DNA of 32,635 nucleotides from a virus, in IMG/VR virus record IMGVR_UViG_3300010410_000006, positions 1 to 32,635 of that record; one strand, written 5' to 3'. How positions within the stretch are numbered: the first letter of the stretch is position 1; each line of letters starts with the position of its first letter. The notes under the pieces are model-generated. The model ran no database searches. It saw only the letters and a program-made list of their open reading frames with translations, and had not been told where the DNA came from. Both the position numbers and the translations under genes were made by a program. This document shows, in pieces, positions 8,395-30,729 of the stretch.

Positions 8395-8907
8395 TTACTT
8401 TCCACTTTTATTTTTCATAATGTCATCTGCTTTTGGAACTCCAGCAAGCAGTTCTTCCATAGCATTTCCTTCAATAGTGCTCCCGGAATTATTGATATTG
8501 AGTCTGCTTCTAGCCGACGGACTCAGTCCAAGCTCTGAACAGAAGTTTCTCATCTGTTTCAAGTTCTGCTGGGCAATGGACACTTGAGGAATCTGCTGAA
8601 TATATCCGGAATTCGTTTTAAGAATGGATCCATGTTTTGAAATAAACTCTTCAGCTTCTTTCCATCTGGCATACGCCTGGCAGTAGCCTGCAAAAGCAGC
8701 CATATCAACTCTTGTTAAAAGTCCCATCGTTTCTAGATCCTTCGATAGCCTTCTCCATTCCTTCTTGGCATCCGGTTCCAGCCATGACGGGCATTTTGGT
8801 GCCTTCTTTTCTGGCTTTGGTTCATTTTTATTGAGCGGTCGTTTTCCTGGATTGCCTTCTAGCTCTTTAACCGCTGTTGGTTTTGGTGGTCTTCCTCTAC
8901 CAGCCAT
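8395..8907 (-). CDS. terS: terminase small subunit, P27 family
   Basis: A 170-aa DNA-recognition subunit of the terminase. The start MAGRGRPPKPTAVKELEGNP is the classic P27 beginning, and GGAGG lies 8 nt before this ATG at 8907, so the longer frame to 8925 is not used. Other family features are KCPSWLEPDAKKEWRRL, YCQAYARWKEAEEFI and the C-terminal GLSPSARSRLNI. It binds the packaging initiation site and recruits the large subunit. The 130 nt upstream hold no gene. Confidence 0.93.
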   Translation of the reverse strand: MAGRGRPPKPTAVKELEGNPGKRPLNKNEPKPEKKAPKCPSWLEPDAKKEWRRLSKDLETMGLLTRVDMAAFAGYCQAYARWKEAEEFISKHGSILKTNSGYIQQIPQVSIAQQNLKQMRNFCSELGLSPSARSRLNINNSGSTIEGNAMEELLAGVPKADDIMKNKSGK

Positions 8908-9034
8908 AACTTTCACCTCCTTCATTTTCTCAAAGAAAAAGGAACCTTCATCTGAAAGCCCCTATCACTCATTATTATTACTCCACACTATTTTTCTTAT
9001 CTGCATACATCAAGCCTGTTTTTATGCAGCAAGT

Positions 9035-13933: not shown

Positions 13934-14293
13934 CTATGGTTTAGAAGCATTTCCGAAGCCCCCATCTTCCTTTGCAGTCTTTTTAGAGTGACAGCTTTTA
14001 CAGAGCGGCTGCCAGTTCTTCTTGTTCCAGAAGAGTCTTCTATCACCACCGTGCGGCTTGATATGGTCCACCTCTGTTGCAGGAGTGAGTCGACCTTCTC
14101 TTTGACACTCAGCGCAGAGCGGATGTTTCTTTAAAAACTCTTTACTAGCCTTTCGCCACTTGTAGGTGTACATCTTAGAGCTTCTTTCATTTTGAATCCT
14201 CGTCATTTCTTTTTTATGTTTCTCACAGTATCTATCATGAGTAAGTGTTTGACACCCAGGATAGTTACAGATATGCTTTGGTTTCCAAGGCAT
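13934..14293 (-). CDS. HNH endonuclease (packaging-associated type)
   Basis: A 119-residue or shorter HNH nuclease starting MPWKPKHICNYPGC at 14293, with GGAGG 8-9 nt upstream. It has the zinc-binding CNYPGC and CAEC/CKSC cysteines and the HNH core ATEVDHIKPHGGDRRLFW followed by NWQPLCKSCHSKKT. Proteins of this type, HK97 gp74-like, help terminase cut cos DNA and usually lie next to terS. Here they are separated by the methyltransferase and amidoligase genes. The C-terminal TAKEDGGFGNA is common to the packaging subgroup. Confidence 0.88.
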   Translation of the reverse strand: MPWKPKHICNYPGCQTLTHDRYCEKHKKEMTRIQNERSSKMYTYKWRKASKEFLKKHPLCAECQREGRLTPATEVDHIKPHGGDRRLFWNKKNWQPLCKSCHSKKTAKEDGGFGNASKP

Positions 14294-14347
14294 CAAGTTC
14301 ACCTCCAGTAATCTATTAAAATAATTATGAGCATTAAAAAAGACCAA

Positions 14348-14563
14348 CTAATCTTTCAGCTGATCTAATTTACGATACTCTTTTTCTAATATTTTCAAAT
14401 TATAATCTCGAATTTCATGCACAAATATATTACTTCCACATCTATTACAATACGCTTCTTTGCCAATATATTTAATGATTTTACCTTTTATTGTTTTTAC
14501 TTTAGATTCTTCTTTAATAAAGTATTCTTCCCTATCACGACATTTCTCGCAAAACCCTAACAT
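14348..14563 (-). CDS. small zinc-ribbon protein, MqsA N-terminus-like
   Basis: A 71-aa protein with CEKC at residues 5-8 and CNRC at about 39-42, spaced by ~30 residues, and a lysine-rich stretch between (KVKTIKGKIIKYIG). The arrangement resembles the zinc-binding N-terminal domain of MqsA/YgiT-type antitoxins, without the helix-turn-helix. GAGGTGA precedes the ATG. It is the last gene of the AT-rich repressor-protease-PIN cassette, 112 nt after the PIN gene. An antitoxin role is only suggested by this context. Confidence 0.55.
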   Translation of the reverse strand: MLGFCEKCRDREEYFIKEESKVKTIKGKIIKYIGKEAYCNRCGSNIFVHEIRDYNLKILEKEYRKLDQLKD

Positions 14564-14675
14564 TTATATTCACCTCATTTGAATATATAACTTTTGATGT
14601 GAACTAAAAACCTCTAGTATCTCTTCTACTTTTGCAATAGATTCACTTACCTTTTCAATATCTTATCCTTAATAG

Positions 14676-15209
14676 TTACTTGATTTTTTTAAGGTACTCA
14701 GTAAAAGTAGCTGTTGGAAGCATTCTTCTTTTTCCAATCATGTTTTTCCATATTTGGTTCCCAGTTGATTCATCAATATAACCTTTATTTAATGCTTCTA
14801 CCAATATATCAGCTGTTGTTATATGATCAAGTTCATATTTTTTTACATACTTCGATATATCTTTTAAATTATTAGAAGCAATTACTCCATTATATGTTTT
14901 TGCTAGCGCTATAGCTGCCGCTTCACCTTTACCAATTATTCTTTCTCCTTTAGGTGGTGAGATTGCCAATTCATAATACAAATTATATTCTTCTGTATTC
15001 ATTAATATTTCTTTTGTAGAAACATCTCCACTTAAATACAATTCATTAACCTTACGTTTTATATGTGGAATACTAGGATTAGATAATTCATTAAATACAG
15101 GTTTCGGTAGTATTATTTTACCTGGATATAGCTTAAATAAAATGTTCTCTTCCTTCACCCACAAGAAGGCAGAGATACAATCGGTATCAAAAAAAAGTTT
15201 GTCAGTCAT
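14676..15209 (-). CDS. PIN-domain protein (putative ribonuclease toxin)
   Basis: A 177-aa protein starting at the ATG at 15209; its first 8 nt overlap the ImmA stop (ATGACTGA), so the two are translationally coupled. The start MTDKLFFDTDCISAFLW carries the first PIN acidic residues Asp8 and Asp10. GKGEAAAIALAKTYNGVIAS and NNLKDISKY supply the later acidic positions. PIN domains are Mg-dependent RNases, often the toxin of a toxin-antitoxin module. The protein has an extra C-terminal helical part. Together with an XRE protein and an ImmA protease it resembles described XRE-metalloprotease-PIN gene sets. Confidence 0.7.
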   Translation of the reverse strand: MTDKLFFDTDCISAFLWVKEENILFKLYPGKIILPKPVFNELSNPSIPHIKRKVNELYLSGDVSTKEILMNTEEYNLYYELAISPPKGERIIGKGEAAAIALAKTYNGVIASNNLKDISKYVKKYELDHITTADILVEALNKGYIDESTGNQIWKNMIGKRRMLPTATFTEYLKKIK

Positions 15210-15960
15210 ATAATTCTTCCTCGTCCAGATCAAAACCGTATACAATATCACTTCTAAACCCATTTAATAAAATTTCTTCATATTTACCCTGTGATATTGT
15301 GTCTTTTGTTTTAAGCTCCTCAGCTAACTTAATGTACTTCCCAAAAGTAGCATACTGCTTATCTTCTGGAGTGGGTGTATATAATTCATCATCATATCCA
15401 AGTCTTCTAGCTGAAGATATTATTCCGGTTTTCATAGTACTCGTTGTAGCTTTTGTTAAATACCCATCATTTATTAATCTCCATAGTGTAGCTTGCCTAC
15501 TGATACCAAAATTTTGTTCGATTTTTACAATATCTTCTATGTTAAGTTCTTGTTTTTCTTTTCCAAGCTTATTTTTTATAAAATAAGATAACGCTTCATA
15601 AGGAGCTAAAAAATACGATGCAAACATATCTGCTTCCTTCTCCTGAGGATCCTTGTTCGTTTCAAGATCTGTAAAGCAAACTATACTATTAAAATCTTCA
15701 TGATAAAATAGATGATAAAGCTCATGTGCTATTGTAAAACGCTGTCTACCATAAGTAGATTTTGAATTAACTCCGATGATTTTATTTTTTCCGTCTCTAA
15801 TACAAATACCGCTTAATCGACTACTCATGGGATAAAACACGATTGTTAAATCATCGTTATTATGGATTAGTGAGAATATATCTATTGGGGAATTAGAGTC
15901 TTCACCAAATTGTTTTCTTAAATTTATGGCTTCACTGTTTAGTTCAATTTTTTCTTTCAA
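15202..15960 (-). CDS. ImmA/IrrE-family metallopeptidase
   Basis: A 252-aa zinc protease. The signature FTIAHELYHLFYH gives HExxH with His79, Glu80 and His83, and the later EKEADMFASYFLAP supplies the third zinc ligand Glu109. Such proteins cleave XRE repressors (ImmA on ImmR in ICEBs1, IrrE on DdrO) and so induce downstream genes. It starts with TTG at 15960: GAGGGGG is 8 nt upstream and no better start exists. The XRE stop is only 3 nt before. C-terminal residues 150-250 are an extra domain, longer than minimal ImmA. The substrate is probably the XRE protein directly upstream. Confidence 0.85.
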   Translation of the reverse strand: MKEKIELNSEAINLRKQFGEDSNSPIDIFSLIHNNDDLTIVFYPMSSRLSGICIRDGKNKIIGVNSKSTYGRQRFTIAHELYHLFYHEDFNSIVCFTDLETNKDPQEKEADMFASYFLAPYEALSYFIKNKLGKEKQELNIEDIVKIEQNFGISRQATLWRLINDGYLTKATTSTMKTGIISSARRLGYDDELYTPTPEDKQYATFGKYIKLAEELKTKDTISQGKYEEILLNGFRSDIVYGFDLDEEELYD

Positions 15961-15963
15961 GAT

Positions 15964-16302
15964 TTATTCCCCCTCAAGTAAACCTTCCATAAATCTTAGG
16001 TTAAGCGCAATTTTATTCATGGCCGCTATAGTATACAAATCCTCTGTAGCAACACTCTTTGCTCTAAGAGCTATTGGCATTTGTTCGAATTCACTAGACT
16101 CGTTCACAAAATAATCCATAGTGCATCCAAAAAGCTCCGCAGCTTTATCCAATATCTCAACACTAAACTGCCTTTCTCCTTTTTCACATTTTGAAATATA
16201 GCTCTGATCAACATCTAAATATTCAGCCATAACACCTTGTTTGAAACCATTCATTTTCCGTAATTCTTTAAATCTTTTTGCAACTAATTCAAAATTTAAC
16301 AT
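15964..16302 (-). CDS. XRE-family repressor
   Basis: A 112-aa regulator with an N-terminal helix-turn-helix (RFKELRKMNGFKQGVMAEYL, then DVDQSYISKCEKGER) and a short C-terminal helical tail. It precedes the ImmA protease by 3 nt, the ImmR/ImmA arrangement. GGAGG lies before the ATG, and a near-consensus promoter with a long inverted repeat is directly upstream, so it probably represses its own operon. In a prophage it could be a lysogeny repressor, but its position inside the late region next to a PIN gene fits better with a self-regulated accessory module. Confidence 0.85.
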   Translation of the reverse strand: MLNFELVAKRFKELRKMNGFKQGVMAEYLDVDQSYISKCEKGERQFSVEILDKAAELFGCTMDYFVNESSEFEQMPIALRAKSVATEDLYTIAAMNKIALNLRFMEGLLEGE

Positions 16303-16324: not shown

Positions 16325-16353
16325 ATTATATGTTAGTGTTGTCATAAATTCAA
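16325..16353 (-). promoter_or_regulatory. promoter of XRE-ImmA-PIN operon
   Basis: On the minus strand, -35 TTGAAT (16353-16348), 17-bp spacer and a perfect -10 TATAAT (16330-16325), about 20 nt before the XRE ribosome binding site. It is the best sigma-A-type promoter in the window. Confidence 0.8.
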
Positions 16354-16380
16354 CTAATTATTATAATAAATTTATGACAA
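16339..16380. promoter_or_regulatory. 12-bp inverted-repeat operator
   Basis: TTGTCATAAATT at 16339-16350 and AATTTATGACAA at 16369-16380 are perfect inverted repeats with 18 bp between. The proximal arm covers the promoter spacer and touches the -35, so binding of a dimeric repressor would block RNA polymerase. The XRE protein of the operon is the obvious candidate. Confidence 0.7.
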
Positions 16381-16413
16381 TTTTTTAATTTGAGATATTG
16401 CTATTTTTCTTTT

Positions 16414-16454
16414 AAAAAAAGATATAGAAAAAGCTCCAGTGCATTTACTAGAGC
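16414..16454 (-). terminator. rho-independent terminator of late leader RNA
   Basis: Minus strand: GCTCTAGT-AAATGC-ACTGGAGC (16454-16433) is an 8-bp stem with one G-U pair. The G-U shows that it is meant for RNA of this strand. TTTTT follows at once, and a second run of seven T lies at 16420-16414. It should stop transcripts from the late promoter or from the DUF1492 operon. Confidence 0.75.
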
Positions 16455-16554
16455 CTGCGTCCTATGGATACTGCGTTTCCTAAGAATCGTATCGATCTAG
16501 CTTAGGCGTATGCTACAGCATATGATGTTCTAGGATATTTTCTATATCTTTACA
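16421..16554 (-). ncRNA. candidate structured late leader/small RNA
   Basis: A transcript starting about 7 nt after the -10 at 16566-16561 and ending at the terminator would be roughly 130 nt and nearly fully folded. The 11-bp terminal arms (GATATAGAAAA 16421-16431 and its complement 16538-16548) enclose TCCTA/TAGGA (16531-16535 with 16460-16464). Inside are the hairpins TATGC/GCATA (16509-16522) and CCTAAG/CTTAGG with inner ATCG/CGAT (16479-16506). No open reading frame with a ribosome binding site fits. I do not recognise a known RNA class. An alternative reading is a miniature inverted-repeat element, but there is no clear target duplication. Confidence 0.45.
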
Positions 16555-16560
16555 CCATAT

Positions 16561-16605
16561 ACTATAACATGGGTACCTACTGACATTCACTGACATTTAC
16601 TGACA
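16561..16605 (-). promoter_or_regulatory. putative late promoter with three activator repeats
   Basis: Three tandem 10-bp repeats TGTCAGTNNN (16605-16576 on the minus strand) start inside the last codons of the DUF1492-like gene and end 9 bp before a -10-like TATAGT (16566-16561). They cover the -35 region, where no consensus -35 is seen. This is the layout of an activator-dependent promoter, and the regulator gene lies immediately upstream, as with ArpU/RinA-type late switches. Confidence 0.6.
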
Positions 16606-22293: not shown

Positions 22294-25176
22294 TTAATCC
22301 TTCTGATAAAAATCGCATTCATAGCCATCTGCATTAAGTGGTAGTCCTTCGGACCATTTAGTACTCTCACTCATAATGCTGCATATTTCATCTACACTGG
22401 ATTCTCCCATTGGTACTTCGCAGACTACCTCGTCATGCACATGAGCAACGATAGAAAATCCTAATGAATCAATCCTTAACATGGCTTCAGCAAGTAAATC
22501 TCTTGATGCAGCTTGCACGATATTCTCTACAATTTTCGGTCCATAAGTCTCGATGCGTTCCCACTTCCTGTTGGTTCCAATACCTTCATAAGTCAGTCCT
22601 TCTCGCCCGAATTTATTTATCATGAGCTTTGGCTTTACATACACAAGATTTCTCCCTGAAGGTAGAGTAATAAACAACATCCCGCTTTTATAGGCGAAAA
22701 CAATCCCATGGGTTCTTGTTCTGGTTCTCTGCTTCACTGCTTTAATGGCCATCTTGTCTACATCCCACCAAAACTTCACGATATGCCGGTTGGCTCTGCG
22801 CCAATTATCAATAAGACCTTGCAGCTCATGTTCTTCAACTCCCATTTCCAGTGCGCCCATGGATTTCAAAGCTCCTACTCCTCCGCCATAACCACAGTTG
22901 TGCACTAGCTTCCCTGATACGGTAAAACGATGATGTCTTCCGGCATCTCGTATGTCATAAACTCGAGTCTTGCCTTGATTAACCGCCAGTTTTTTCTTTT
23001 GTATCTCACTGCATCTTCTGCCTCTTTGATGATTTGTTCTCGACTCATTCCGGCTCCTAATTTCTTTTTCACAACACTCCGTGTGTACGGCCAATAGATC
23101 TGCTCCCATCGTGTTAACAGTGTTCTTTCTCGATTGGCTTGATTTACACTCCTTTTGACAAATCGCAGATTGTCTTTTTCGTAATGCCCCATGTTGTTGA
23201 TTCGATCTAGTTCCAGCTCTTTTTTTACATTCTCCACATTGGATAAAATCCAAAGACCCGCTTCTAAAATAGAATTGAACCTGAATTCTATCCCTCGCGC
23301 TCCGTACCGGTGATATAGAGGATGATTGGCTTGCTGACATCGCCGCTTCGCCTCGGTCAAACGTCGATCGAGCCATTTGGGGATTTGCCTTGGTCTGGAA
23401 CATCGTTGACATCCCTTTGATTTCCCCGTTCTTAGATTGCCAAGATGGGTCCATTGAATTTTTTTGCAACTGTTGCATTGAGTCAGTACATAACAATGAT
23501 TCCATTTCTCGTTCCATCGTTTCTCCGGGCTTATAATTGTCACCCAGCCGTATCTCTTTCCAACCATCTCCGGTTTGTATGAGATGTGCGCCGCTGGCGG
23601 CGGCTTCTCCAAATTGTACCGGCCTCTGTTTCCCTTCAATCCATACGAGATGATCTTTTGTTGCTTTAAGTCCGTCATATTCAATCACTTCTTTCATTCC
23701 TTTATAAATCAGTCCGCTATGACCTACCCAGCTTTTTCCGTCCCACAATTTGTGGGCTTTAGTAACATGCTCTATGGGTACAAGTCCTTTATTCGTTAAA
23801 ACTAATTCGCCTTCTGCTATACAGGCGAGTTCCGAAATTTTACCTTTCTGTCTCAATGGACTACCCTTTTTAATCTCATCCATAGGAACATGAAACATTT
23901 GTGATGCAGAAGCTTCATAGATTTTCCCATGGGATGCAAACACATCAAGTCTCCATTTTTCGCCTGCAAGCCAGGATAGGACCCTCGCTTCAATAGCTGA
24001 AAAGTCAGCAACGATAAACCGATGACCTTCTTTTGGAATAAAGGCAGTTCTTATCAGTTCTGATAGAACACCCGGTGTGTTGCCAAATAGCATCTGCAGA
24101 TCATCAAACCGTCCTTCTTTCACTAAATCTCTTGCCAGTTTAAGATCTAGAAGATGGTTCTGTGGGAGGTTTTGGAATTGTACCAGCCTACCTGCCCACC
24201 TCCCTGAACGATTGGCTCCATAAAACTGGAACAGTCCATGAACCCTGCCATCTGAGCACACTGCTCGTTCGATGGCCTCATACTTTCTGACACTGGTCTT
24301 AGCCATAAGAAGCCTAAGTTTTAGTGCTTCTTTGACCTCACCATCTGTTTCGTCTACCAACTCTTTAACGTTTTTCTTAGATAAACTTTCAACTTCAACC
24401 CCTCGCTGTGATAACCAGTCCTTGAGCTGAGATACGGAATTGGGATTTTCAAGTCCAGTGAGTTCATAAGCCTTTTCTGTTGCTGCAACTGTAAATTGTC
24501 TATCACAGGATATAGCCTCATCAACTAAGGCCATGTCTGCCTTAATTCCTAAATCATTGATTCTCTGATCCAGCTCGTAAAGAAGTTGCTCAGACTCAGG
24601 CACCTGATAATCCTTAATCTTCTTTCTGATTCCTAGTTCCACTTCAACGTCTCTGATGTTGTACTCTTTAAAGAACTTCCATTTGTCCAGCGCATGCTCT
24701 GGCAGATTTCTAGTTCTTCCACCATTAGCTGCTGTCGCTTTACAAGGAAGGCAGAAATATCTAATGAGAGATTTCCCCTCAGACATCTTTTGTGAATCAA
24801 GTCTTAGCACTTTGCCTACCCCTTCAAGATGAAGAGGAAGTCCAAGTAGTGCTGCCTGAACCTCACTACAACGCCATGATGACGGGTCAAGGTAGATATC
24901 TTCTTCAAGTATTCTGCTTATATATCTCATGAGAGCTACTCTCTCAAAGTTAGCGTTAAAAGCAGTCTTTATAATATCTTCACTGAGAATTGCATCAATA
25001 ATTTCTTTTGAAAGCTCTTCGCCACTGGCTAAATCAATTAGCTCTACTGGTCCTTCATCGACGCTGTAAGCAAAGAGCAGAATGTCAAAGTTTGGGCTAT
25101 CCGTATAGCGGTATACTCCGCACTTTCTTAGGTCTATGTCAGAAAACGTCTCAATATCGATTGACAAAATCTTCAT
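22294..25176 (-). CDS. family A DNA polymerase with inserted intein
   Basis: A 960-aa precursor; about 651 aa after splicing, the normal size for phage Pol A. The start is MKILSIDIETFSD at 25176 with AAAGGAG 10 nt upstream. An N-terminal 3'-5' exonuclease is intact: Asp7 and Glu9 in SIDIETFSD, FNANFERVAL, and EYNIRDVEVE. The polymerase part has motif A (VADFSAIEARVLSWL), motif B split by the intein (LRQKGKISELA | CGYGGG, i.e. R-x3-K-x7-YG) and motif C (AHVHDEVVCE). The intein covers residues 452-760. Without splicing the enzyme should be inactive, because the O helix is broken. Confidence 0.92.
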   Translation of the reverse strand: MKILSIDIETFSDIDLRKCGVYRYTDSPNFDILLFAYSVDEGPVELIDLASGEELSKEIIDAILSEDIIKTAFNANFERVALMRYISRILEEDIYLDPSSWRCSEVQAALLGLPLHLEGVGKVLRLDSQKMSEGKSLIRYFCLPCKATAANGGRTRNLPEHALDKWKFFKEYNIRDVEVELGIRKKIKDYQVPESEQLLYELDQRINDLGIKADMALVDEAISCDRQFTVAATEKAYELTGLENPNSVSQLKDWLSQRGVEVESLSKKNVKELVDETDGEVKEALKLRLLMAKTSVRKYEAIERAVCSDGRVHGLFQFYGANRSGRWAGRLVQFQNLPQNHLLDLKLARDLVKEGRFDDLQMLFGNTPGVLSELIRTAFIPKEGHRFIVADFSAIEARVLSWLAGEKWRLDVFASHGKIYEASASQMFHVPMDEIKKGSPLRQKGKISELACIAEGELVLTNKGLVPIEHVTKAHKLWDGKSWVGHSGLIYKGMKEVIEYDGLKATKDHLVWIEGKQRPVQFGEAAASGAHLIQTGDGWKEIRLGDNYKPGETMEREMESLLCTDSMQQLQKNSMDPSWQSKNGEIKGMSTMFQTKANPQMARSTFDRGEAAMSASQSSSISPVRSARDRIQVQFYFRSGSLDFIQCGECKKRAGTRSNQQHGALRKRQSAICQKECKSSQSRKNTVNTMGADLLAVHTECCEKEIRSRNESRTNHQRGRRCSEIQKKKLAVNQGKTRVYDIRDAGRHHRFTVSGKLVHNCGYGGGVGALKSMGALEMGVEEHELQGLIDNWRRANRHIVKFWWDVDKMAIKAVKQRTRTRTHGIVFAYKSGMLFITLPSGRNLVYVKPKLMINKFGREGLTYEGIGTNRKWERIETYGPKIVENIVQAASRDLLAEAMLRIDSLGFSIVAHVHDEVVCEVPMGESSVDEICSIMSESTKWSEGLPLNADGYECDFYQKD
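22897..23823 (-). other. intein (309 aa) in DNA polymerase motif B
   Basis: The intein begins with Cys1 (codon 23823-23821) in CIAEGELVLTNKGLVPIEHV (block A) and has block B GLKATKDHLVW with the TxxH residues Thr55 and His58. It ends with block F VYDIRDAGRHHRFTV and block G GKLVHN, followed by Cys+1 of the extein. All splicing residues (Cys1, TxxH, terminal His-Asn, Cys+1) are present, so splicing should work. Between blocks B and F, the intein frame holds ~190 residues of Ser/Arg/Gln/Lys-rich sequence without recognisable endonuclease motifs; the real endonuclease is in another frame of the same DNA. Confidence 0.88.
22905..23567 (-). CDS. HNH homing endonuclease nested out of frame in intein
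   Basis: A 220-aa protein in the +1 frame relative to the polymerase, completely inside the intein DNA. The start MVGKRYGWVTIISPEKRW (ATG 23567) is typical of phage HNH homing enzymes. Residues 31-34 and 53-56 are CNSC and CQRC (zinc finger); RYGARGIEFRFNS at 87-99 and ELDRINNMGHYEKDNLRF at 119-136 are the hallmark of the HNH group with D-R-I...H-Y...N-L-R, followed by NQAN at 142-145. GGAG lies directly against the ATG, so initiation is unclear; alternatives are ATG 23678 or coupling to polymerase translation. It ends with TAG at 22907, eight bases before the splice junction codons. Both frames are open for 220 codons. Confidence 0.82.
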   Translation of the reverse strand: MVGKRYGWVTIISPEKRWNEKWNHCYVLTQCNSCKKIQWTHLGNLRTGKSKGCQRCSRPRQIPKWLDRRLTEAKRRCQQANHPLYHRYGARGIEFRFNSILEAGLWILSNVENVKKELELDRINNMGHYEKDNLRFVKRSVNQANRERTLLTRWEQIYWPYTRSVVKKKLGAGMSREQIIKEAEDAVRYKRKNWRLIKARLEFMTYEMPEDIIVLPYQGS

Positions 25177-25265
25177 GGGCTTACCGCTCCTTTCTTTGAA
25201 TACTATGGGTGAAGGTGACATGCTTTAACTCTGCCACCCACCCAGTACATACTCCTAGCATCAAC

Positions 25266-29728: not shown

Positions 29729-30163
29729 TTAAAAAAACTTTCTGAGCTTTGCTAAGACCTTGTCTCTTCGCTTCATAACAGCTACGTGCGAAACATTTCT
29801 TTTATCTGCCGCAGCCCTGACAGTCATCTCTTCATAGAAAAGATCATTGATTAGCTCTTGCTCTTGCCTGTTCAGTTCTTTCATGGCTTCTTGAAGAATC
29901 AAAAGCATAGCCTTATCAACAACGATGTCTTCAACTTGCTTCTCCCCTGCTACAAACACTTTACCGGCGTCATTTAATCGCTGGATGGAATCTTCTTTAT
30001 TTGGCACAAATGTTACTTTTTCTTTCTCCATATCTACATCAATGCGCCCTGCTTTAACATCTTGTTCTAGGTATCTCTCACGGCGCTTCATCTTGTAATA
30101 CTCTTTGTAAATCTCGTCTGATACGGGCACTGCTGTTTTTCCAATTCTTATCTCTTCACTCAT
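29729..30163 (-). CDS. sigma-region-4-like early regulator
   Basis: A 144-aa protein. The C-terminal ~60 residues carry a sigma-70 region-4-like helix-turn-helix (LNRQEQELINDLFYEEMTVR, AADKRNVSHVAVMKRRDKVL). The N-terminal part is lysine/glutamate-rich (YYKMKRRERYLEQDVKAGRI) without the region-2 core. It resembles small phage proteins annotated as sigma factors that regulate early operons. AAAGGAG precedes the ATG at 30163. A strong terminator lies just upstream, so its expression may depend on read-through. Confidence 0.75.
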   Translation of the reverse strand: MSEEIRIGKTAVPVSDEIYKEYYKMKRRERYLEQDVKAGRIDVDMEKEKVTFVPNKEDSIQRLNDAGKVFVAGEKQVEDIVVDKAMLLILQEAMKELNRQEQELINDLFYEEMTVRAAADKRNVSHVAVMKRRDKVLAKLRKFF

Positions 30164-30214: not shown

Positions 30215-30291
30215 ATCCGAGAGACAAAAAAAGACGGCAGTGGAACACCTTTTTAAGGTATTTCGCACTGCCGTCTAGCGGTCTCACGGAT
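30215..30291 (-). terminator. strong terminator with nested outer stem
   Basis: AGACGGCAGTG (30232-30242) and CACTGCCGTCT (30266-30276) form a perfect 11-bp stem, and on the minus strand seven T follow, so it is a strong rho-independent terminator. Outer arms ATCCGAGAGAC (30215-30225) and GTCTCACGGAT (30281-30291) match at 10 of 11 positions. It ends transcripts of the 51-aa gene before the sigma-like gene and could act as an attenuator if read-through is regulated. Confidence 0.75.
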
Positions 30292-30463: not shown

Positions 30464-30729
30464 TGGCTTGTCCTCCTTTCTTTATGCGTTCTTTAGTGGC
30501 AACGAATATATTATTTCGATTGAATAGATACTCTCTTTATACCGACATAATCTTCGCGTTCGTGAATATTTAATTCTAGTAAAGCGATAATTTTCATGAT
30601 ATAATTTAATTGGTTAAAATTTCAATATCGCTTAACTACTAATAAAATTGTACAAAAAAAATTCCTTCCACTCAGGAAGGACTCGGAAGGATTCGGAAAG
30701 ACTCGGAAAATAAACGGAGGTGGTAGACA
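30464..30729. promoter_or_regulatory. divergent regulatory region
   Basis: This gap separates the minus-strand phage genes from the plus-strand ABC-3C genes. An 8-bp inverted repeat AAGCGATA (30582-30589)/TATCGCTT (30626-30633) surrounds a possible plus-strand -10 TATAAT (30600-30605) that lacks a good -35. I found no clear minus-strand promoter. Before the first ABC-3C gene lie a CCTTCC/GGAAGG hairpin and three 10-bp tandem repeats (30675-30704). Confidence 0.5.
30675..30704 (+). repeat. three tandem 10-bp repeats before ABC-3C operon
   Basis: GGAAGGACTC, GGAAGGATTC and GGAAAGACTC follow one another, with a partial fourth copy. They lie about 25-55 nt before the ATG at 30730 and upstream of the GGAGG. 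CCTTCC at 30664-30669 can pair with the first GGAAGG. Confidence 0.75.

Follow-up and report, generated by a model that had tools for sequence, protein, structure and literature searches.

A structured, terminated leader RNA at the late promoter of Bacillota phages and its possible part in read-through control

Introduction

The late switch of phages of Gram-positive bacteria has mostly been described as promoter activation only. In phage lambda, a late regulator gene is followed directly by the late promoter pR', a short terminated leader and, beyond it, the late genes. A comparable order was proposed in an earlier note on a 32,635-nt stretch of viral DNA, the whole of which is referred to here as the window: an activator-type late promoter at the end of a late regulator gene, leading into a folded RNA and a terminator, with a stand-alone regulatory RNA as the alternative. 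The question raised by this locus is whether late transcription has to read through a terminated leader in order to reach the packaging genes or whether the short RNA is itself the product. If the former is true, terminated leaders behind late promoters, that of phi11 included, would add a second, post-initiation gate to the switch, for whose opening this conserved RNA would be an obvious candidate factor, and would account for the presence, at no lethal cost to the phage, of accessory genes that bring terminators of their own to the head of the late operon. The leader RNA also constitutes a new family that can be searched for (model R1).

Results

The features of the locus are listed in Table 1. 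At the end of the regulator gene, where the earlier note had placed them, three repeats of TGTCAGT were confirmed and found to have a period of exactly 10 bp, with the first repeat overlapping the final codons and the stop of this DUF1492-type gene; the triple scored 21/21, as compared with a maximum of 17 for shuffled upstream sequences. The −10 box had been placed 9 bp further on, a distance that is correct for the TG of TGTTATAGT but not for the hexamer, TATAGT, which is located 12 bp after the last repeat. A scan of the 32,635-nt window detected no second triple of 10-bp repeats with an extended −10. A −10-like sequence, TATAGA, is present just past the predicted start. Other 10-bp-spaced repeats (TTCCGAG/TTCCGAA) were seen at 30680-30715, without an extended −10 and between divergent early genes, and are possibly early-region operators.

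Table 1. Features of the late-promoter region and late operon in the window
Feature	Position	Strand	Basis or remark
Late regulator gene, DUF1492/ArpU-like, 139 aa, sigma-region-4-like helix-turn-helix	16597..17016	minus	Pfam, PHROG and NCBIfam profiles
TGTCAGT, three direct repeats	16605-16599, 16595-16589, 16585-16579	minus	exact 10-bp period; probable (putative) activator sites
Extended −10 element TGTTATAGT	16569-16561	minus	sequence; position kept in relatives
Transcription start, predicted	~16556-16553	minus	placed from extended −10
Folded leader RNA of ~140 nt, a new family	16414..16556	minus	covariance model, covariation, fold; without Rfam match
P1 5' arm AAAGATATAGAAAA	16538..16551	minus	pairs with 16418-16431; A-U where most relatives have G-C
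P1 3' arm TTTTCTATATCTTT	16418..16431	minus	overlaps terminator U-tract
RNA core P2-P5	16460..16535	minus	fold and covariation
P2, UCCUA/UAGGA	16535-16531/16464-16460	minus	
P3	16521-16515/16474-16468	minus	
P4, CCUAAG/CUUAGG	16506-16501/16484-16479	minus	
P5, AUCG/CGAU	16496-16493/16489-16486	minus	
P6, intrinsic terminator hairpin and first U-run	16428..16456	minus	hairpin 16456-16431, U-run 16432-16428
Second U-run, after P1	16414..16420	minus	sequence; lost or broken in several relatives
Accessory genes between leader terminator and HNH	14348..16302	minus	
XRE	15964-16302	minus	
ImmA/IrrE	15202-15960	minus	
ORF, 195 aa	14676-15263	minus	
ORF, 71 aa	14348-14563	minus	
Second intrinsic terminator	14341..14366	minus	closes the inserted genes, immediately ahead of HNH
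HNH endonuclease gene, first core gene of late operon	13934..14347	minus	Pfam HNH 1.9e-10, PHROG 144
Third terminator-like hairpin	8940..8963	minus	just upstream of terS
terS	8395-8925	minus	PHROG 83

The regulator matched Pfam DUF1492 (PF07374; 9.5e-9, 35.8 bits) above the curated cut-off of 21.5, Pfam Sigma70_r4_2 (7.1e-6) and PHROG 36, "transcriptional regulator" (9e-30); its score against TIGR01637 phage_arpU (24.6 bits) was below the curated cut-off of 43.1 and, hence, below membership of the ArpU family. An AlphaFold model was helical (pLDDT 80); its only matches were short ones to sigma region-4 domains, consistent with the Pfam and NCBIfam results, and no PDB match to this model was found at E < 0.001. 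Three 10-bp-spaced repeats were present close upstream of the RNA in every intact copy among the relatives described below. The sequence of these putative activator sites upstream of the −10 varied along with the regulator's recognition helix in all the types seen: TGTCAGT repeats with DPRT(V/I)(Y/F)RIH, GGGCAGT with NNR(T/S)VFKVH or NSRSVFKVH, GAGACT with DRSSIFRIH, GCGACT with DRSWVFRVH, and GCCACT with DKRWIMRLH. This agreement, which is partly due to shared descent, is the best computational evidence on the point; as helix and repeats change in step, it supports a role of the DUF1492 protein as activator of the late promoter and, with it, the activator-type promoter originally proposed. 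A second sigma-region-4-like protein, of 144 aa, is encoded at the far end of the early region (29732-30163), and a strong terminator (hairpin of −27.8 kcal/mol) ends just upstream of it, near 30231.

From the predicted start to the end of the second U-run, the transcript would be 140 to 143 nt long. That it is folded into nested stems was upheld: the window RNA folded alone gave the structure obtained by comparison (minimum free energy, −41.7 kcal/mol; z, −4.0), and none of 200 shuffles was as good. In the fold from the predicted start, P1 closes the molecule, one arm consists of P2 to P5, and the other is the terminator hairpin P6. The closing arms, AAAGATATAGAAAA and TTTTCTATATCTTT, do pair (0/300 shuffles were as strong) but over 14 bp and not the 11 bp previously counted. 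The core loops UAGCAUACG and AAACG are unpaired and well conserved. Both of the U-runs that had been assigned to the terminator are present in the window, but only the first can be called the conserved one, because several relatives lack the second or have only a broken version of it. Placement of the folded RNA on the minus strand was supported by covariance model scores of 148 bits on that strand versus 20 bits on the plus strand.

Several other interpretations of these bases were considered. A 19-bp hairpin of the first fold used promoter bases upstream of the start, outside the predicted transcript, and the start-based fold consisted of P1 to P6. An alternative 5' hairpin (GGUGU/ACACC), which would form a switch with P1, was 88.7% paired but did not exceed shuffles, of which 63 of 500 were as good. 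No tRNA-like identity was found. The reading frame over the core is broken between relatives by one-base insertions and deletions; as these lie inside the core, a coding role is unlikely, and the small CDS annotated over the core in PV036459 is probably spurious.

Relatives were gathered by scans with the core motif and the regulator protein. The leader RNA was found to recur in ~30 phages and prophages of Bacillota, including IMG/VR records, Youngiibacter, Clostridium tetanomorphum, Heliorestis, Litchfieldia, Anaerotalea, a Soehngenia MAG, a Limnochordia MAG, a MAG labelled Thermaerobacter and the annotated phage PV036459. As the first motif scan fixed CTTAGGAAACGC, the invariance of this stretch is partly selected; copies obtained by other routes (L005, L044, L208 and L211) vary within it. 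In every intact copy checked, the RNA started at the late promoter and lay on the strand of the late genes, preceded by a DUF1492 gene and followed by HNH or inserted genes. Covariance model R1 added more remote copies from Clostridia, where it matched 6 of 391 genomes, the centre genome included; in Bacilli, it matched 1 genome of 299, namely, the centre genome; by these few matches, the leader RNA is widespread but rare. One copy, L212 (38 bits), is a 3' remnant only, and the matches of an ATG-TGTAG pattern scan were mostly due to chance. Two copies beside galU (L059 and L216) are prophage remnants from which the surrounding phage genes are missing; L216 has kept the promoter, the RNA and an XRE gene, with the regulator gene absent.

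Most helices were recovered unguided by RNAalifold on a 25-sequence alignment. In 30 sequences fitted to the model, an alignment that leans towards that model, 94.7% of pair cells were standard (37 to 46% when slid) and two-sided changes were present in 19 of 39 pairs, versus 8.2 in shuffles and 3 to 5 on sliding, with none of 500 shuffles reaching 19. P3 was paired in 30/30 sequences, with three positions doubly changed. A free MAFFT alignment gave the same picture (93.1% paired; two-sided changes in 12 pairs versus 5.5). Loss of stems without compensating changes, named in the earlier note as the observation that would speak against it, was not the pattern in homologues, whose helices keep 88 to 100% of their pairs and all contain doubly changed positions. 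The core was 76 to 100% identical in pairs of relatives whose adjacent regulator genes are 63 to 75% identical. For the window and six relatives, no match at gathering score was obtained in Rfam 15, 6S RNA included; the best weak match was RsaF (19.9 bits, with 60 needed), and this and a weak match to MIR6217 were attributed to chance. A literature search, conducted largely outside subscription journals and preprints and judging DUF1492 papers by title, found no report of the leader RNA. It is a new RNA family, present in no RNA catalogue (Rfam), and we are highly confident that it is a leader under selection that has a defined structure, is tied to a promoter and ends in a terminator.

The packaging genes of the window lie behind the leader terminator and two more terminator-like sites, at 16431, 14340 and 8939, and the accessory genes are inserted exactly behind the first of these. 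In two closely related phages with a shared backbone, the leader stands directly before HNH in one (L217), and only the other (L218) has an XRE-ImmA cassette at this spot, closed by a further terminator with the CTATGCC tail of the leader. Different inserts occupy the same spot in L056, L031, L038 and L043. One genome, G071, contains four promoter-leader-terminator units in series, alternating with inserted genes, and the last unit precedes HNH; the core is intact in one unit, degenerate in another and absent from the other two. This series looks like an accumulation of cassettes by recombination between leaders. The units correspond to L209/L214 (G071:C1, ~1151000-1154160), each before a different accessory gene. 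Because inserts and serial units bring terminators with them, late transcription must cross several terminators or restart. Elsewhere in the window, a DNA polymerase-like ORF of 975 aa (22294-25221) seems, by eye, to contain an intein-like insertion, and a 259-aa ORF located inside it in another frame (22905-23684) looks, likewise by eye, to be of the HNH type.

A terminator, taken as a hairpin at or below −8 kcal/mol followed by a U-tract, was present within 250 nt downstream of 25 of 25 late promoters examined (9 chosen by repeats and −10 alone, all with a terminator; 8 DUF1492 loci selected visually, with knowledge of the terminator; and 8 belonging to the RNA family), as compared with 22 of 240 random same-strand positions (9%). 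Many of the terminated leaders lack the RNA core and are only ~45 to 100 nt long, and some of the hairpins are modest (−8 to −12 kcal/mol). The promoter-terminator order is kept in these coreless relatives, e.g., L010, L011, L203, L222 and phi11. P1-like pairing was rejected as a general trait of coreless leaders, with just 2 of 14 having it at about 3% or better. The rinA-terS interval of phi11/80alpha (L250, 2335-2530, equivalent to phi11 16334-16529) has the same promoter-leader-terminator order: 10-bp TGGCAGT repeats and a TATTAT −10 are followed by a leader of ~100 nt and by a terminator ahead of terS. At least partial matches to this type of interval were obtained in 94 phage records. 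A hairpin resembling a terminator is also found ahead of terS in TP901-1, much farther from the promoter. The phi11 leader contains CTGCGTTTCC, which corresponds to the core motif GGAAACGCAG in reverse complement; this is probably a coincidence. TATGCCC follows the U-tract in six otherwise unrelated leaders with the same promoter type (L010, L016, L199, L206, L222 and L234), mostly without a matching P1 5' arm.

Discussion

The generality of terminated leaders and the location of the window packaging genes behind terminators, without a second late promoter, support the pR'-like layout of the earlier note. As in lambda, the late-regulator gene is followed at once by the late promoter, and an intrinsic terminator, identified from sequence, lies between this promoter and the late genes. 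Unlike in lambda, the regulator is of an unrelated family, three 10-bp-spaced repeats are present, and the RNA has a conserved structured core; the likeness is one of layout, and action of the window regulator as an antiterminator is hypothetical. The Ltr, RinA, Alt and ArpU promoters share with that of the window a small regulator gene just upstream, repeats at or near its 3' end and late genes downstream (PMC13123087). For phi13 Ltr, the need for repeats at the 3' end of the late-regulator gene in activation is established, and four repeats bound by Alt have been reported for TP901-1 (PMC13123087). These promoters differ from those of the leader RNA phages in that the sources consulted report no conserved leader RNA for them.

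Structured RNAs at the start of transcripts are known from other systems. HK022 putL is a two-stem RNA just downstream of its promoter, and the leader RNA is like put in being located at the start of a phage transcript, with terminators beyond and an early −10-like element (PMC9378689). In contrast to put, which has ~70 nt with two stem-loops after the promoter and belongs to early operons of a lambdoid phage, the leader RNA is a ~140-nt, branched, P1-closed structure of late operons in Bacillota phages and is set apart by length and structure. RNA-directed read-through in Gram-positives is exemplified by EAR and conAn, in which an RNA stands at the start of a long terminator-containing operon (PMC8955417). 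The leader RNA likewise stands at an operon start with terminators downstream, whereas conAn and EAR are found in conjugation or exopolysaccharide operons and conAn needs a partner protein; the Rfam scan linked the leader RNA to neither.

We propose that the DUF1492 protein, produced together with the early gene products, would bind the three repeats and thereby activate the late promoter in which its own gene ends. RNA polymerase would first make the ~140-nt leader, whose P1 to P6 structure is shown by comparison, and by default the transcript would stop at the P6 terminator, as its hairpin and U-run suggest. The late genes would then be reached only by polymerase reading through P6 and the further terminators. 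The simplest reading of a conserved core with unpaired loops is that the core, being transcribed before the terminator, may act in cis on the elongating polymerase to allow passage, either alone, like HK022 put, or jointly with the regulator. That these phages must pass the leader stop to make new particles is probable; for the whole chain, a read-through-controlled late leader whose core acts on the elongating polymerase, we consider the chances to be evenly balanced. Against it stands the same promoter-terminator order in coreless phages, which share the layout and from which it follows that the core is not required for read-through in general. As the terminated leader is kept there without the core, other means of passage would be needed, probably the regulator, the leader sequence or leakage, and modest terminator hairpins may simply leak. 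A stricter version, in which the core would be an RNA-only, put-like processive antiterminator of Bacillota phage late operons and, once transcribed, would stay with polymerase past all terminators of the >15-kb late operon, those of the inserts included, is possible but somewhat unlikely.

A stand-alone small RNA, the alternative of the earlier note, would act in trans as a terminated ~140-nt molecule on host RNA polymerase, mRNAs or the packaging motor, with late genes expressed via leaky termination. The pairing of the 5' and 3' ends in P1, whose 3' arm overlaps the U-tract, suits such a stable RNA, as do the well-conserved unpaired loops and, in the window, a second U-run right after P1. 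However, intact copies are always tied to the late-promoter position and, because the 3' arm of P1 lies in and beyond the first U-run, the terminated RNA of relatives lacking the second U-run would have only part of P1. We judge this reading to be unlikely and favour the leader, on the basis of the coreless terminated leaders in other DUF1492-type phages with their same layout and of window packaging genes without another recognisable late promoter. Passage could instead be due to the protein, if the repeat-bound DUF1492 regulator both activated the promoter and modified polymerase to pass the terminator, leaving the core an accessory role in folding, timing or stability. In lambda, the Q gene and its sites stand immediately upstream of pR'; the gene and sites of the sigma-region-4-like regulator are similarly placed, and many DUF1492/RinA-type phages have terminated leaders without the core. 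We know of no link between DUF1492 and antitermination, and conservation of the core across hosts would be left unexplained by this proposal. The TATAGA past the start resembles the −10-like elements at sigma-dependent pauses, one of which has been discussed for putL (PMC9378689), but Ltr, RinA and Alt have been described as promoter activators (PMC13123087), and a Q-like regulator appears quite unlikely.

The read-through reading has, finally, to be set against a passive one, in which the terminator would insulate the late genes of a lysogen from early or host read-through, would be overwhelmed by the strong activated promoter and would leave the RNA as a mere folded leader. Some of the hairpins are weak, and a terminator has been described as an insulator of a mobile element for Tn916 (PMC11658703). 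This explanation is improbable: a terminator downstream of the late promoter would also hit the late transcript, and the core, for which a passive leader has no need, is more conserved than the adjacent coding DNA.
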